Source: a virus. From it: DNA of 23,693 nt. The stretch's first letter is position 1, and the number at the start of each line of letters is the position of its first letter. Positions 2,575-20,040 of the stretch are shown piece after piece. Under the pieces are notes generated by a model that was not told the origin of the DNA, did not search any database, and saw nothing but the letters and a program-made list of their open reading frames with translations. The stretch covers positions 1 through 23,693 of the IMG/VR virus record IMGVR_UViG_3300027971_000221, one strand, 5' to 3'. A program made the translations under genes and the position numbers.

Positions 2575-2683
2575 GATCAATCATGTGCTGCGCCAAAATA
2601 GAAAACACGGCCTACCTTTTGAGCAGGCCGTGTCTGAGATACAGGCATCTGTAAACGATGCCCTGGCGCTGATTCCGGATTAA
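2492..2683 (+). CDS. Small phage protein, unknown function
   Basis: A 63-residue helical protein starting MQITATFQDEQEAIKAIHSE and continuing with a Trp-Gln-Thr-Leu helix and EQAVSEIQASVNDAL. An AGAGGTG box sits at about 2480-2486, 5-9 bases before ATG 2492, so the start is well supported despite the 83-base overlap with the zinc-ribbon gene. The gene ends the plus-strand cluster; its TAA shares bases with the stop of the converging hyperacidic gene. A terminator serving the minus strand lies inside its coding sequence. Function is unknown. Confidence 0.65.
   Translation: MQITATFQDEQEAIKAIHSERAWQTLYEINHVLRQNRKHGLPFEQAVSEIQASVNDALALIPD
2596..2633 (-). terminator. Intrinsic terminator for the phosphoesterase/acidic-protein operon
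   Basis: ACACGGCCT (2605-2613) and AGGCCGTGT (2625-2633) form a perfect 9-bp stem with an 11-base loop. Read on the minus strand, the stem is followed by TTTTC and TATTTT, a fair U-tract; on the plus strand no T-run follows. It lies about 50 bases past the stop of the minus-strand acidic gene, as expected for its terminator, and inside the converging gene at 2492-2683. Confidence 0.65.
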
Positions 2684-2952
2684 GCAGCCTCGGCTTCTTC
2701 TTCCTCTTCGTCGTCGTACTCTTCCTCGTCGTCGCCCCAATCTGCCTCGTCGTCTTCGACCAGGAGCCACTCGCCGGTCTCTTCGTTCAGCCAGTACCAA
2801 GCGTCGTACTCAGCGTCGAACCAGCAGTAGCAATCTGCCTCATCGTCGTACTCGTACTCTTCGCCTTCTTGAAAGCAATCGACTAACGATTCGCAATCGC
2901 TGTTGATTTCTACTTCGGTGGAATTGTTGATGATAAATGTGAATGAATACAT
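2680..2952 (-). CDS. Hyperacidic Trp/Tyr-rich small protein (possible DNA mimic)
   Basis: A 90-residue protein starting MYSFTFIINNSTEVEINSDC. I count 23 Glu and 14 Asp (41% acidic) and no Lys, Arg, His or Pro, giving a net charge near -37. The middle is rich in aromatic residues in a repeating acidic-aromatic pattern (CYCWFDAEYDAWYWLNEETG), and the C-terminus is a run of Asp/Glu. AAGGA at 2961-2965, formed by the stop region of the upstream phosphoesterase gene, is its ribosome site, so the two are co-translated. Strong negative charge on a small phage protein is the hallmark of DNA mimics such as T7 Ocr, but no homology to Ocr or ArdA is seen, so that role is a hypothesis. It could also be an acidic chaperone. 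Confidence 0.72.
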   Translation of the reverse strand: MYSFTFIINNSTEVEINSDCESLVDCFQEGEEYEYDDEADCYCWFDAEYDAWYWLNEETGEWLLVEDDEADWGDDEEEYDDEEEEEAEAA

Positions 2953-12884: not shown

Positions 12885-13538
12885 TTACACCGATAGGTTG
12901 GAGACAAACGACAGTGTAACGATGGCCGACGGTACTGCTGGCCTGGTTGGGGAAGTGCCTGCCGGATACTGCTCAATCGACACTCCGACATCAGTAGGCC
13001 GCCACATGATCTCCACATAGTCGTTTGCGTTAAGGCTTACAAAATAGTTTATTGCTGCAATTGTGTGAAACGGATCGTTGGCGCCTTTTCTGGGTGCAAA
13101 CCCAAACCTTGAGTTCGACTTGTCAATGTTTGTCCCATTCTTTCTGAACCAAACGTCAACGTCTTGGGATGAATTTGTCGTGTTCGTAAACTGGATGGAA
13201 AACTGGACGTTGTATATGCCCGACTGCGATACGTTCAGCCTGGATGAGTTTGAGAGAGTGACACCGTTGTTGAAGTCGGTTGTGTTAAAGGTGACGGCGT
13301 AGGCCGTGGTGGTGTTAGCCGCGACCTGGTCTGTGGAGTCCTGGAACGCTCCATAAGGTGCGTTGAGGTACTTGCCTCCACGCGGTCCGAATAACGCTGC
13401 CAGAGCGTTTGTGACGCGGCCTGCATAGTTCCCGATGTTGCTGAATGTTTGACTGAAAAACAGGCGGTCATACACCTCACCAGGGTTGCCGAGATTCGGC
13501 TGCGCTGGCGTTGTGATCTGGCCGCTGTAGTCGCTCAT
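12885..13538 (-). CDS. Fibre protein with C-terminal C1q-like jelly-roll
   Basis: A 217-residue protein starting MSDYSGQITTPAQPNLGNPG. The N-terminal 70 residues (VYDRLFFSQTFSNIGNYAGR) look like an attachment region. Residues about 75-217 have the pattern of a C1q/TNF-like jelly roll: TTAYAVTFNTTDFNNGVTLS, then SGIYNVQFSIQFTNTTNSSQ, DVDVWFRKNGTNI, and SLNANDYVEIMWRPTDVGVS. Such domains form trimers at the tips of phage fibres and bind host surface sugars or proteins. The start overlaps the stop of the endolysin gene by ATGA. It is a second receptor-binding candidate, separated from the S74 fibre by the lysis cassette. Confidence 0.75.
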   Translation of the reverse strand: MSDYSGQITTPAQPNLGNPGEVYDRLFFSQTFSNIGNYAGRVTNALAALFGPRGGKYLNAPYGAFQDSTDQVAANTTTAYAVTFNTTDFNNGVTLSNSSRLNVSQSGIYNVQFSIQFTNTTNSSQDVDVWFRKNGTNIDKSNSRFGFAPRKGANDPFHTIAAINYFVSLNANDYVEIMWRPTDVGVSIEQYPAGTSPTRPAVPSAIVTLSFVSNLSV

Positions 13539-13873
13539 ACGTTCCGTTCAAAGTGTGGGCAGTCCACCAAACTCTTGAAGTTACCACCCCAGCGATTCTT
13601 CGGGTGCAGGCTCTCCCAATACGCGCCTAGAGGAGCCAGGATACCCTTGTCCCAGATAATCTTCCCATCCTTGAAAAAGTTGAGGTCGGCGGCGCAACGC
13701 TTGAGGTGGATGCTGTTCATAGTCTTTGACCGGCCAGTCTTGAAGTAGATGGCCTGCTGCTCTGGTGTACGCGCCAACTCGCCGCCAGTGACTAGAAAAC
13801 CCTGGTCGGTGGCGTACTGCACCAACTTGCAGAAATCCAGCAGGAAAGCCGCTTGTTCTCGACTAAGACTCAT
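13535..13873 (-). CDS. Endolysin, M15-type (VanY-like) L-Ala-D-Glu peptidase
   Basis: A 112-residue protein starting MSLSREQAAFLLDFCKLVQY. Zinc ligands of the M15 fold are in place: His56 in NSIHLKRCAADLNF, Asp63 in the same stretch, and His107 in DCPHFE, with Asp104 just before it. WGGNFKSL precedes that last motif, as in M15C/VanY endolysins that cut the cross-bridge of peptidoglycan. Length (112) is shorter than T5-type endolysins (about 137) but includes all catalytic residues. ATG 13873 with AAGGGG upstream is preferred over TTG 13894. It lies after the holin gene and a small Cys-containing protein, so it belongs to the lysis cassette; no signal peptide is seen. Confidence 0.87.
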   Translation of the reverse strand: MSLSREQAAFLLDFCKLVQYATDQGFLVTGGELARTPEQQAIYFKTGRSKTMNSIHLKRCAADLNFFKDGKIIWDKGILAPLGAYWESLHPKNRWGGNFKSLVDCPHFERNV

Positions 13874-14063
13874 ACAAACCCCTTTTTTGGACAACTAGCT
13901 CAATGCAAGTGGAATCCACTACCGCGCCCATCTTGGCGAATTCTCCTTGCTTTGCCACAACAACTTCGATGCATTTCTGCCGGTCAGTGTAATACGCGTG
14001 CTGCTGAAAGAACTCGCAGTGTCCGTTCATGCAGATGTAGAGTACGGGGATGAAGATGCTCAT
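13863..14063 (-). CDS. Small Cys-containing lysis-cassette protein, unknown function
   Basis: A 66-residue product starting MSIFIPVLYICMNGHCEFFQ. A short hydrophobic start (residues 2-11) is followed by a domain with four Cys (11, 16, 31, 53), perhaps an exported disulfide-bonded domain. Similar small proteins beginning with a hydrophobic stretch and CMNGxC are common beside phage lysis genes, without known function. Its start overlaps the holin stop by ATGA, and its 3' end overlaps the endolysin start by 11 bases, so it is part of the coupled chain. A spanin role cannot be supported: there is no long coiled coil or lipobox. Confidence 0.7.
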   Translation of the reverse strand: MSIFIPVLYICMNGHCEFFQQHAYYTDRQKCIEVVVAKQGEFAKMGAVVDSTCIELVVQKRGLYES

Positions 14064-14572
14064 TTGTTACTCCTCATTTCTGCCAGCTTCTCGACGGTAC
14101 GTCCACCAAAGTACGCACCCATAATCAGCATTCCCCAATTACCCAGCAAGGTCACATAGGACTCATTGGCGTTGTATCCAAAGGCAGACATCATGGCAAA
14201 CAGGAAATAGCCGCAAAAGATGGCAATTAGCGACATTGGCCGGATGTTTTTTGACAGCCATGAGTCGCTAGACATATCAGCTTTCCAGCGGTCTGTGATG
14301 TTGTTGGCGTCAGCCTGTGCCGCTTTTGCGTACAGCTCCAGTTCAGCCATCTCCAGCTTGGCCTTCTCGATGCCCAGCTCAATCAGGCGCTCTTCGTGGT
14401 CGTACTGCAACTCGCGCAGCTTCTCGACATCAGCCGGTGTTGGGTTATCGGGGATCTTCACGCCAAGAGTGTTCTCGACCACCTCTTTGCCTTTGGCCTG
14501 AATGGCGCTAGATAGCAGCCCCAGGCCGCTTTCCGCAAGAGTGCCGAGTAGTGCGCCGAGTATTGGAATCAT
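14060..14572 (-). CDS. Holin of the three-segment (GTA_holin_3TM-like) type
   Basis: A 170-residue protein starting MIPILGALLGTLAESGLGLL. A hydrophobic N-terminal segment (residues 1-23) is followed by a soluble charged helix (about 45-90, VEKLRELQYDHEERLIELGI) and then TDRWKADMSSDSWLSKNIRP, a signature of this holin-like family. Two transmembrane segments follow at about 111-131 (SLIAIFCGYFLFAMMSAFGY) and 140-158 (TLLGNWGMLIMGAYFGG). Such proteins form the membrane lesion that releases the endolysin. It lies immediately upstream of the small Cys protein and the endolysin in transcription order. Its start overlaps the stop of the frameshift gene (TGATG). Confidence 0.83.
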   Translation of the reverse strand: MIPILGALLGTLAESGLGLLSSAIQAKGKEVVENTLGVKIPDNPTPADVEKLRELQYDHEERLIELGIEKAKLEMAELELYAKAAQADANNITDRWKADMSSDSWLSKNIRPMSLIAIFCGYFLFAMMSAFGYNANESYVTLLGNWGMLIMGAYFGGRTVEKLAEMRSNK

Positions 14573-15062
14573 CAGAAACCCCTGTTCATAATTACGTTAA
14601 ACGTGATGCTCACCAGTGGGACAACGATAGCGGATGCGCCGGAGATCCAGAGTGTGTTCATAATGATTGCCACTTTCGCTTCCTTGTCCTTCTGCTTTCT
14701 CTCTGACTCTTCTCTTTCAAGTGTGTTGCGCTCCTTAATCATCCTGGTGCGCTCTGCCATCATCTCTTCCCACACTGGCGCATTGCCACTATAGAAAAGG
14801 ATGTCTTTCAGCTCCTTCTCATGCTCTCTCAGTGCCTTTGACGCCAGTGCAATCTGGAGAGCCTCAGAACTGATCTGTGCATTCGTCTTTCCTATTGACG
14901 CAATCCTGGCCTTGCTGCTTGCTAGGTGTACCGTGTCTGCCGCTTGATAGAAACTGCTGAATTCTTTGTATAGGCCGTGTATATCTTTACCAAGGGCTAC
15001 CGCTTTTTTATGCCTGCCACCGCACCCTGGGCAATAGCAAAGGCCGTAAACGGATCAATCAT
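14572..15062 (-). CDS. Putative membrane protein encoded by two frames joined by -1 frameshift
   Basis: The zero frame starts at ATG 15062 (coupled by ATGA to the upstream stop) and encodes MIDPFTAFAIAQGAVAGIKK, Arg, then TAG at 14997-14999. The slippery heptamer A AAA AAG (15009-15003) lies just before that stop. After a -1 slip the reading continues as AVALGKDIHGLYKEFSSFYQ and stays open to TGA 14572, giving a 163-residue product. Residues about 20-100 are helical, a Glu/Lys/Arg-rich segment follows (TRMIKERNTLEREESERKQK), and a C-terminal transmembrane helix (ISGASAIVVPLVSITFNVIM) ends the protein. The joined sequence resembles a family of phage proteins that begin MIDPFTA and that I recall as continuous frames. 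Alternatives are an A7-to-A6 deletion in the sequence or an inactivated gene. Function is unknown; lysis-cassette position suggests membrane action. Confidence 0.72.
15003..15009 (-). other. Slippery heptamer A AAA AAG (candidate -1 frameshift site)
   Basis: In the zero frame the codons are ATA AAA AAG CGG TAG, so the heptamer is in exactly the phase needed for tandem -1 slippage (the same heptamer is used in bacterial dnaX). The zero-frame stop comes only one codon after it. An AGGGTG lies about 17 bases upstream; I see no strong stem immediately downstream. Confidence 0.6.
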
Positions 15063-15226
15063 TTCTTGTTCACAACTACCCAGCGGCAGATGCGTCCGTC
15101 TTTGTCCATAAATTCATTTGCGCCCATCGTCTTGTCCTCATCTTTCTTAGGGATACGACAAACCAAAACCGTCTTTGTCTCAGTGCCAGGCCACGGGCTT
15201 TCCGCTGATGCAAGCAGAGAAATCAC
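15059..15226 (-). CDS. 55-residue small protein, GTG start
   Basis: The ORF starts GTG at 15226, overlapping the previous stop as GTGA, and its own stop overlaps the next ATG as ATGA. The product begins MISLLASAESPWPGTETKTV and continues with VCRIPKKDEDKTMGANEFMD and RICRWVVVNKK. The first eight residues are hydrophobic but too short for a firm membrane call. AAGG lies about 8 bases before the GTG. Overlaps on both sides and a coding-like composition support it as a real gene in the lysis cassette. Function is unknown. Confidence 0.6.
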   Translation of the reverse strand: MISLLASAESPWPGTETKTVLVCRIPKKDEDKTMGANEFMDKDGRICRWVVVNKK

Positions 15227-15456
15227 TTGTCTACCTTGGAGTCCAGCCGGTCGAACAATCGCTCTAGGGTCGCGTCGATCCTGTCAAACCGATTCTCAAT
15301 GTCTTTCTTGGTAACGTAGTTCTTTGGCAAGTCAACTTGAATTGCCTGGATGTCTTCTTTTAGAGACTTCACAGAATTCCATATTTCCTTGCACCACCAT
15401 CCAACAGCGACCAGGATTGCGCCACCCACGAAGTTGAATAAAGGCTGGAATTCCAT
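15223..15456 (-). CDS. Small membrane protein with coiled coil
   Basis: A 77-residue protein starting MEFQPLFNFVGGAILVAVGW. One transmembrane segment (about residues 6-21) is followed by an amphipathic helix (EIWNSVKSLKEDIQAIQVDL), a break at PKNYVTKKD, and a second helix (IENRFDRIDATLERLFDRLD). This N-in or N-out membrane anchor plus coiled coil is common among phage proteins next to holins, and could act as an accessory holin or spanin-like scaffold. It lacks a proline-rich spanin region. ATG 15456 directly follows the stop of the upstream gene. Exact role unknown. Confidence 0.72.
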   Translation of the reverse strand: MEFQPLFNFVGGAILVAVGWWCKEIWNSVKSLKEDIQAIQVDLPKNYVTKKDIENRFDRIDATLERLFDRLDSKVDK

Positions 15457-18765: not shown

Positions 18766-19385
18766 CCGAATGTCCTTGCTCTTGCCATCAGAGCGCCGCC
18801 CGTCATGGATCCGCGTTCATCAGACAGGTTAAGTGCGTCGATTCCCTTCTGATACAGCCCAGCCCATACCTGGATTCTCGCATCATCTTGGAGGTACGGC
18901 GCGGCCTGAAGCAGCGAACCATAAAGGTAAACGTCGGGCGAAAGAGTCAGCAGCCAGTTGGTCGTGTTTGAGTTGGATAGCTTGCTGAGTTTCGCGTAGT
19001 AGATCAACTCGGAGACGTAGGATGTGTCGGGTACTGGTAGGACGCGAATCTGTCCACCAATCACGCAAAAATACTTAGGCTGGCCGCTGGCCGTGTAGCT
19101 GACTTGCAAGTCATCCATCGCGTTGATGCTTTGAAATACCAGCGGGGAGATGGGGTTCGTACCGGTCAGCTTGAACGACTTAGCCTCCAGGTAGTCATCA
19201 GGCAGTGCGCTGTACTCGGTGTTTACAGTGGCGTTGGCTCTGACAATCATCTGCCTGGTGCGCAGATCGCGCTCCATCTGTGATTCCGCGAGAGAGACAA
19301 AGTCGGTGATGGCAGACGTGAGATCGCTACGGTTGAGCCAGTCGGCCACCGAGGCTTTCAGTTCAGCGTAGGTGCTAAGTGCCAT
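18762..19385 (-). CDS. Head-tail adaptor, SU10-type
   Basis: A 207-residue protein starting MALSTYAELKASVADWLNRS. The opening (YAELKASVADWLNRSDLTSA, then ITDFVSLAESQMERDLRTRQ) is a signature of the SU10 adaptor family, which forms a ring on the portal of short-tailed phages. Further segments (DYLEAKSFKLTGTNPISPLV, YASGQPKYFCVIGGQIRVLP-like, and SELIYYAKLSKLSNSN) and the C-terminal helices (DVYLYGSLLQAAPYLQDDAR) agree with it. Length is as expected for the family (about 200). The start overlaps the glycosyltransferase 3' end by 11 bases, with AAGG-rich sequence upstream. Confidence 0.82.
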   Translation of the reverse strand: MALSTYAELKASVADWLNRSDLTSAITDFVSLAESQMERDLRTRQMIVRANATVNTEYSALPDDYLEAKSFKLTGTNPISPLVFQSINAMDDLQVSYTASGQPKYFCVIGGQIRVLPVPDTSYVSELIYYAKLSKLSNSNTTNWLLTLSPDVYLYGSLLQAAPYLQDDARIQVWAGLYQKGIDALNLSDERGSMTGGALMARARTFG

Positions 19386-20040
19386 TTTCTGCCTTTTCCT
19401 TTTCGATGTCGCGCATCATCCAGGTGTGATCGTGCTTGAACTCAAAAGTCCCGATATGGCCGATCTCTTTGCTCACGTCGTGGTCTATGTAGATTTTATA
19501 CCCTGCCGCCTGCGCCTTCCGGCAGAAGAAGATGTCCTCACCGATGTAGCCGCGCTTGTCGGTGCGCCAGGGAGTTTCGAACCACGGCTCTGTCAGCTTC
19601 TCAAAGACGTTGCGCTTGATTAGCATCACGCCCATTCCGATGCTGCCAACTTCCTCAATGCCGGTGGATTCGGGCATCGTGTAGACCAATTCGCGCTCGC
19701 CATCTGGCCCGTATTTTTGGGCAGTCGGGCCTGTTGGAATTCTACGCCGAGCGCAGTTTGTTGCCACGATGTCCAGGTCATGTTTTAGCAGGCGCTCGAC
19801 CATGTCCTGCGGGAACGTCATGTCTGAGTCGATGAACAGGATGTGGGTGCAGCCTTCGCGCATCGCATCTAGCGCTAGGTCAGCACGCTGGTTTTGGATC
19901 AGCGTGCCCTGCATGATCTTGAGAGACACTGCGTCTGTCGTGTTGAGCGTGTGGTAGCAGACCATATTCACCAGGCAATAGGTGAAATTGGCGTGGACCA
20001 TGTCACGCGCTGGGGTGCAGACTGCAATGTAGTTGTTCAT
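19375..20040 (-). CDS. GT-A-fold glycosyltransferase
   Basis: A 221-residue protein starting MNNYIAVCTPARDMVHANFT. The strand IAVCTPAR, the helix RADLALDAMREGCTHILFID and the metal-binding DSD (residues 71-73, FIDSDMTFPQ) are the GT-A nucleotide-sugar-binding layout. Later, YIGEDIFFCRKAQAAGYKIY and IDHDVSKEIGHIG give the ED...H acceptor and metal pocket of family 2-type enzymes. It is phage-typical in length. It lies between the capsid and adaptor genes, coupled by ATGA to the small protein upstream. It may glycosylate a virion protein or host surface structures; substrate is unknown. No membrane segment. Confidence 0.83.
   Translation of the reverse strand: MNNYIAVCTPARDMVHANFTYCLVNMVCYHTLNTTDAVSLKIMQGTLIQNQRADLALDAMREGCTHILFIDSDMTFPQDMVERLLKHDLDIVATNCARRRIPTGPTAQKYGPDGERELVYTMPESTGIEEVGSIGMGVMLIKRNVFEKLTEPWFETPWRTDKRGYIGEDIFFCRKAQAAGYKIYIDHDVSKEIGHIGTFEFKHDHTWMMRDIEKEKAENGT

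Follow-up and report, generated by a model that had tools for sequence, protein, structure and literature searches.

A conserved A_AAA_AAG heptamer and a covarying downstream stem point to programmed -1 ribosomal frameshifting in a lysis-cassette gene of uncultivated phages

In tailed phages, most known cases of conserved programmed frameshifting concern tail assembly genes. In the tail assembly chaperone G/GT, a -1 frameshift conserved among tailed phages adds a C-terminal part to the product. The heptamer A_AAA_AAG followed by a downstream structure is a standard, efficient bacterial -1 signal, present in E. coli dnaX and in elements of the IS3/IS911 type (PMC4066793, PMC5009743). In E. coli it ranks in the top three motifs for efficiency when a stimulator is present (PMC4066793). 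Stimulatory structures usually begin 5–8 nt 3' of the slippery site (PMC4066793). Translation of the lysis gene of the RNA phage MS2 depends on ribosomes arriving at an overlapping stop and start (PMC5009743, PMC10885494).

The sequence studied (the window) is a 23,693-base IMG/VR virus record. A gene split between two frames lies on its minus strand, in a cassette with the order small protein with a hydrophobic N-terminus (15456–15223), short gene, split gene, holin, M15 peptidase. Features of the cassette are as follows.

15062–14572, minus strand: split gene, zero frame and -1 frame joined.
14997–15062, minus strand: zero-frame reading frame MIDPFTAFAIAQGAVAGIKKR with its stop (21 residues; predicted helix 1), constrained in the zero frame over codons 2–17.
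15003–15009, minus strand: slippery heptamer A_AAA_AAG, in phase; invariant in 89 of 89 distinct genes and in 276 of 276 fetched loci.
14572–15003, minus strand: -1 frame part, codons 21–163 and stop, AVALGKDIHGLY...NVIMNRGF; constrained in the -1 frame.
14983–14997, minus strand: 5' arm of the putative stimulatory stem, GCCCTTGGTAAAGAT, after a spacer of 5 nt; identified by pairing and covariation.
14939–14954, minus strand: 3' arm of the putative stimulatory stem, GTTTCTATCAAGCGGC; at third positions 9 and 63 the two partners change jointly between C-G and T-A.
14579–14583, minus strand: AGGGG, Shine-Dalgarno-like, within the last codons of the split gene and 5' of the holin ATG; such a motif is present in 83 of 89 homologues.
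14060–14572, minus strand: next gene, holin with three transmembrane segments (PHROG 3427, holin, E 1.4e-13); the holin ATG and the stop of the -1 frame overlap (TGATG).
15059–15223, minus strand: small upstream gene ending in ...WVVVNKK; its stop and the split-gene ATG overlap (ATGA).
13535–13894, minus strand: M15-type peptidase, the endolysin of the cassette (PF13539, E 5e-7; PHROG 465, endolysin, E 7e-16).

The zero frame ends in GGC ATA AAA AAG CGG TAG. The first-pass annotation, made from the letters alone, had described 20 residues and an Arg before TAG, a perfectly phased A AAA AAG and a -1 frame open for 143 codons up to the holin start, and all three are borne out: the zero frame occupies 15062–14997 and the heptamer 15009–15003 of the minus strand, and the 143 open codons run from the heptamer G (15003) to a TGA at 14574–14572, whose last base is shared with the holin ATG. 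Its remark that the heptamer supports efficient -1 slippage in bacteria agrees with published work (PMC4066793, PMC5009743).

The product of 15223–15456 (minus strand) has 77 residues, a hydrophobic stretch at its N-terminus and probably a coiled coil. Its matches are PHROG 462, which bears the name lipoprotein, and PHROG 937, which bears the name hemolysin; the protein is possibly a further membrane protein of the lysis cassette. Elsewhere in the window, a glycosyltransferase-like gene (19375–20040, minus strand; PHROGs 1574 and 34859) lies amid head and structural genes, and a 90-residue reading frame (2680–2952, minus strand) is very acidic, with a tail rich in Glu and Asp.

Heptamer and phase in the split gene are identical to those of the dnaX and IS3/IS911-type signals, and the structure likewise lies within the usual 5–8 nt spacing (PMC4066793, PMC5009743); gene and role are different. 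The shift in dnaX gives a shorter product, whereas here it would give the only full-length, conserved one. Addition of a C-terminal part is shared with G/GT, but the split gene is located between small membrane-protein genes and the holin and endolysin, encodes a membrane helix and gives no match to the chaperone families; by its lack of a family match and its place in the lysis cassette it is not assigned to the tail assembly chaperones. The MS2 lysis gene has no fixed slippery heptamer of this kind, and coupling in the split gene is presumed from the overlap. The literature searched yielded no report of conserved frameshifting in the lysis cassette of a tailed phage; this does not prove that none exists. 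As a mechanism, such frameshifting is known; this gene and its setting, the lysis cassette of freshwater phages, appear new in the searchable literature.

The preferred reading is that the full-length protein is made by programmed -1 ribosomal frameshifting at A_AAA_AAG (probability about 0.9, as judged from sequence evidence). The ribosome would initiate at the ATG at 15062 and read 20 codons. While its two lysine tRNAs occupy the AAA and AAG codons of the heptamer, it would move back by one base, aided by an mRNA hairpin that begins 5 nt 3' of the heptamer. Shifted ribosomes would continue in the -1 frame, produce an all-helical protein of 163 residues with a C-terminal membrane helix and terminate on the holin start codon. 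Ribosomes that do not slip would terminate one codon later and release a short peptide. The efficiency of slippage on the ribosome may set the dose of the membrane protein, and perhaps of a coupled holin, during lysis.

Break and heptamer recur at the same place in 79 of the best 80 relatives in IMG/VR. The same break is present in at least 119 virus contigs of that collection, drawn from at least 73 metagenomes. The pattern for the broken form permitted any Ile codon and either Lys codon ahead of the -1 frame; even with synonymous codons permitted, ATA AAA AAG (ATAAAAAAG) stands in every one of the 276 copies fetched, a set in which a contig could occur more than once. A parallel pattern for the unbroken form, applied to the whole collection, retrieved 5 contigs. 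Three of these represent a more distant relative (ATC AAA AAA GCA; 43% identical to the protein of the unbroken relative L090), and two are close relatives (L007/L284 and L090/L312). Among the 89 distinct complete genes, codons 18–20 are ATA AAA AAG without exception, while the surrounding codons vary synonymously and Ile and Lys codons elsewhere in the gene do vary. A heptamer of the X_XXZ_ZZN type is thus held in the correct phase within the overlap of two reading frames, with its synonymous sites frozen and the broken frame kept in homologues.

Synonymous divergence (pS) among the 89 distinct genes is about 0.6. The pN/pS ratio is 0.097 before the site in the zero frame (codons 2–17) and 0.093 after the site in the -1 frame; the most constrained part is codons 21–46 in the -1 frame, with 0.05. 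The zero-frame continuation over codons 21–46 is unconstrained (ratio about 2). Constraint therefore passes from the zero frame to the -1 frame at the heptamer. The zero-frame product is 21 or 46 residues long, two unrelated lengths. Since this tail is unconstrained and of two lengths, the conserved product is taken to be the full-length protein, the only one visibly under selection in these alignments. The short peptide from non-slipping ribosomes is probably a by-product. It was considered as a conserved peptide and rejected on the same grounds, and the proposal in the first-pass annotation that a short and a long product are both made under regulation is unsupported.

A lost A, through sequencing or assembly error or in a pseudogene, would give the same picture in one genome as a single homopolymer indel. 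The break is common to contigs from many independent assemblies, as counted above, and synonymous divergence of about 0.6 is accompanied by purifying selection on both sides of it, so that this explanation, raised at first pass, can be discarded with near certainty. Two separate genes, one for the short zero-frame peptide and one for a -1 frame protein with its own start, would agree with the position of the zero-frame stop, which in 24 of the 89 distinct genes directly follows the site. The 79 copies checked, however, contain no ATG, GTG or TTG among the first 52 codons of the -1 frame past the site; the earliest possible start is at codon 52 or later, most often at codon 80. Separate initiation cannot supply the most conserved stretch, which precedes any such start, and an internal start in the -1 frame was rejected for this reason. 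Relatives with an unbroken frame also fuse both parts. The two-gene explanation is very improbable.

Transcriptional slippage, in which RNA polymerase adds one A and so restores the frame in part of the mRNA without any ribosomal shift, would give an identical picture at the DNA level, as had been pointed out earlier, and an A run does sit at the break. Every copy has a run of exactly six A and none a longer one, whereas polymerase slippage normally occurs on runs of more than seven A (PMC3711429); the call is therefore ribosomal frameshifting. Two further features, the unvarying last G of AAG and the stem downstream, likewise belong to ribosomal sites. Slippage of the polymerase is improbable, if somewhat less so than two genes. 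For ribosomal frameshifting at the heptamer, as first proposed, the evidence legible in the sequences themselves (the site and its conservation, the switch of constraint between frames, the covarying stem) gives strong support.

With the heptamer G as nucleotide 1, nucleotides 7–21 can pair with nucleotides 50–65 after a spacer of 5 nt. Paired cells amount to 96.6% in 59 distinct sequences and to 31–54% once the 3' arm is slid; none of 500 shuffles reached the covariation score of the stem. Positions 9 and 63, both silent third positions, are C-G or T-A in 86 of the 89 genes, and on a tree constructed with the stem region left out they change in concert approximately eight times. Among 325 site pairs tested, none is more strongly coupled; the neighbouring sites 54 and 66 also show partial linkage, so inheritance in blocks adds to the coupling. 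Stability of the stem is only modestly higher than in codon-preserving shuffles (mean z -0.46). A downstream structure at the expected spacing (about 5–8 nt) is present in most members, except for a clade of five (L105, L123, L255, L291, L359) that retains the heptamer but not the main stem and folds differently. Another hairpin (CCTTG...CAAGG) occurs in L105 at about the same spacing from the heptamer. The stem is likely to act as the frameshift stimulator, judging by pairing and covariation. A search of Rfam gave no match. An upstream Shine-Dalgarno-like stimulator, as in dnaX, is optional and not defining for -1 frameshifting. Unlike in the dnaX and IS3/IS911-type signals, none is conserved in the split gene, where codons 12–17 vary without a shared purine-rich motif.

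The predicted model of the unbroken relative L090 (19 sequences) is characterized by four helices and a mean pLDDT of 77. The zero-frame part forms helix 1, and the site of the shift lies in the loop that connects it to helix 2. The hydrophobic segment, modelled with low confidence, is at the end of the last long helix. A C-terminal hydrophobic helix, in line with the membrane helix noted at first pass, is strongly supported. The split-gene protein belongs to PHROG 32327 (function unknown). A fold search of the PDB gave nothing significant, matches in a viral structure library were to uncharacterised phage proteins only, and family searches gave no functional match. A role in lysis is inferred from position in the cassette.

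Unbroken homologues in PHROG 32327 (HMO-2011, CRP phages, Limnohabitans phage DC31) belong to the same protein family or its relatives. They share the MIDP.. start and the C-terminal membrane helix and are often located near lysis genes; unlike the split gene they have a single frame and lack the phased heptamer. Those examined, namely HMO-2011, two CRP phages and Limnohabitans phage DC31, together with spring-water phages, are unbroken, as are sister subfamilies, mostly KGIQAAIKLGKD-like at the site, in 80 of 80 fetched loci. One unbroken lineage, L007/L090 (approximately 2980–3060 in L007 and 205–290 in L090), falls inside the frameshift clade of the tree, where L082 and L077 are its sisters, and manages without the shift, a point against the frameshift reading. 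Its site reads ATC AAA AAG GCC. Around the site it is closer to the L105 group than to its tree sisters, and this resemblance suggests that the unbroken frame was acquired by recombination. Near the start of the gene an extra T is present in CCTTTTCG, and a TTG start overlaps the upstream TGA. A different frameshift at CCTTTTCG in L007 was considered and rejected: the gene is readable unbroken from the TTG overlapping the upstream stop, and L090 agrees. Prophage copies, or a host by way of bacterial genomes, were not found. The phages are presumed to be of freshwater origin, judging by neighbouring reference records and by the data sets involved.

The overlap with the holin start admits a lysis gate, in which only slipping ribosomes would reach the stop within TGATG and slippage efficiency would set the amount of holin and the timing of the burst. 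In its favour, shifted ribosomes would finish on the holin start, and stop and start lie within a few bases of each other in 86 of 89 homologues. Against it, the same overlap is found in 46 of 60 unbroken relatives and the holin carries its own Shine-Dalgarno-like sequence; coupling specific to the frameshift was rejected on the first of these counts, and both keep the gate a speculative and rather unlikely proposal. As a separate observation, the gene 3' of the split gene differs among relatives (MIPI.., MEWL.., MSEE.., MFDI.., MDWL.. in L025, L064, L067 and others), and the overlap of stop and start is mostly kept in these.

The phages carrying the split gene are abundant and uncultivated, and in their genomes the gene would be mis-annotated as truncated. 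Unbroken sister families and an unbroken lineage within the clade form a natural experiment on the gain, keeping and loss of a frameshift. The split gene would offer a route to test whether translational recoding tunes lysis.
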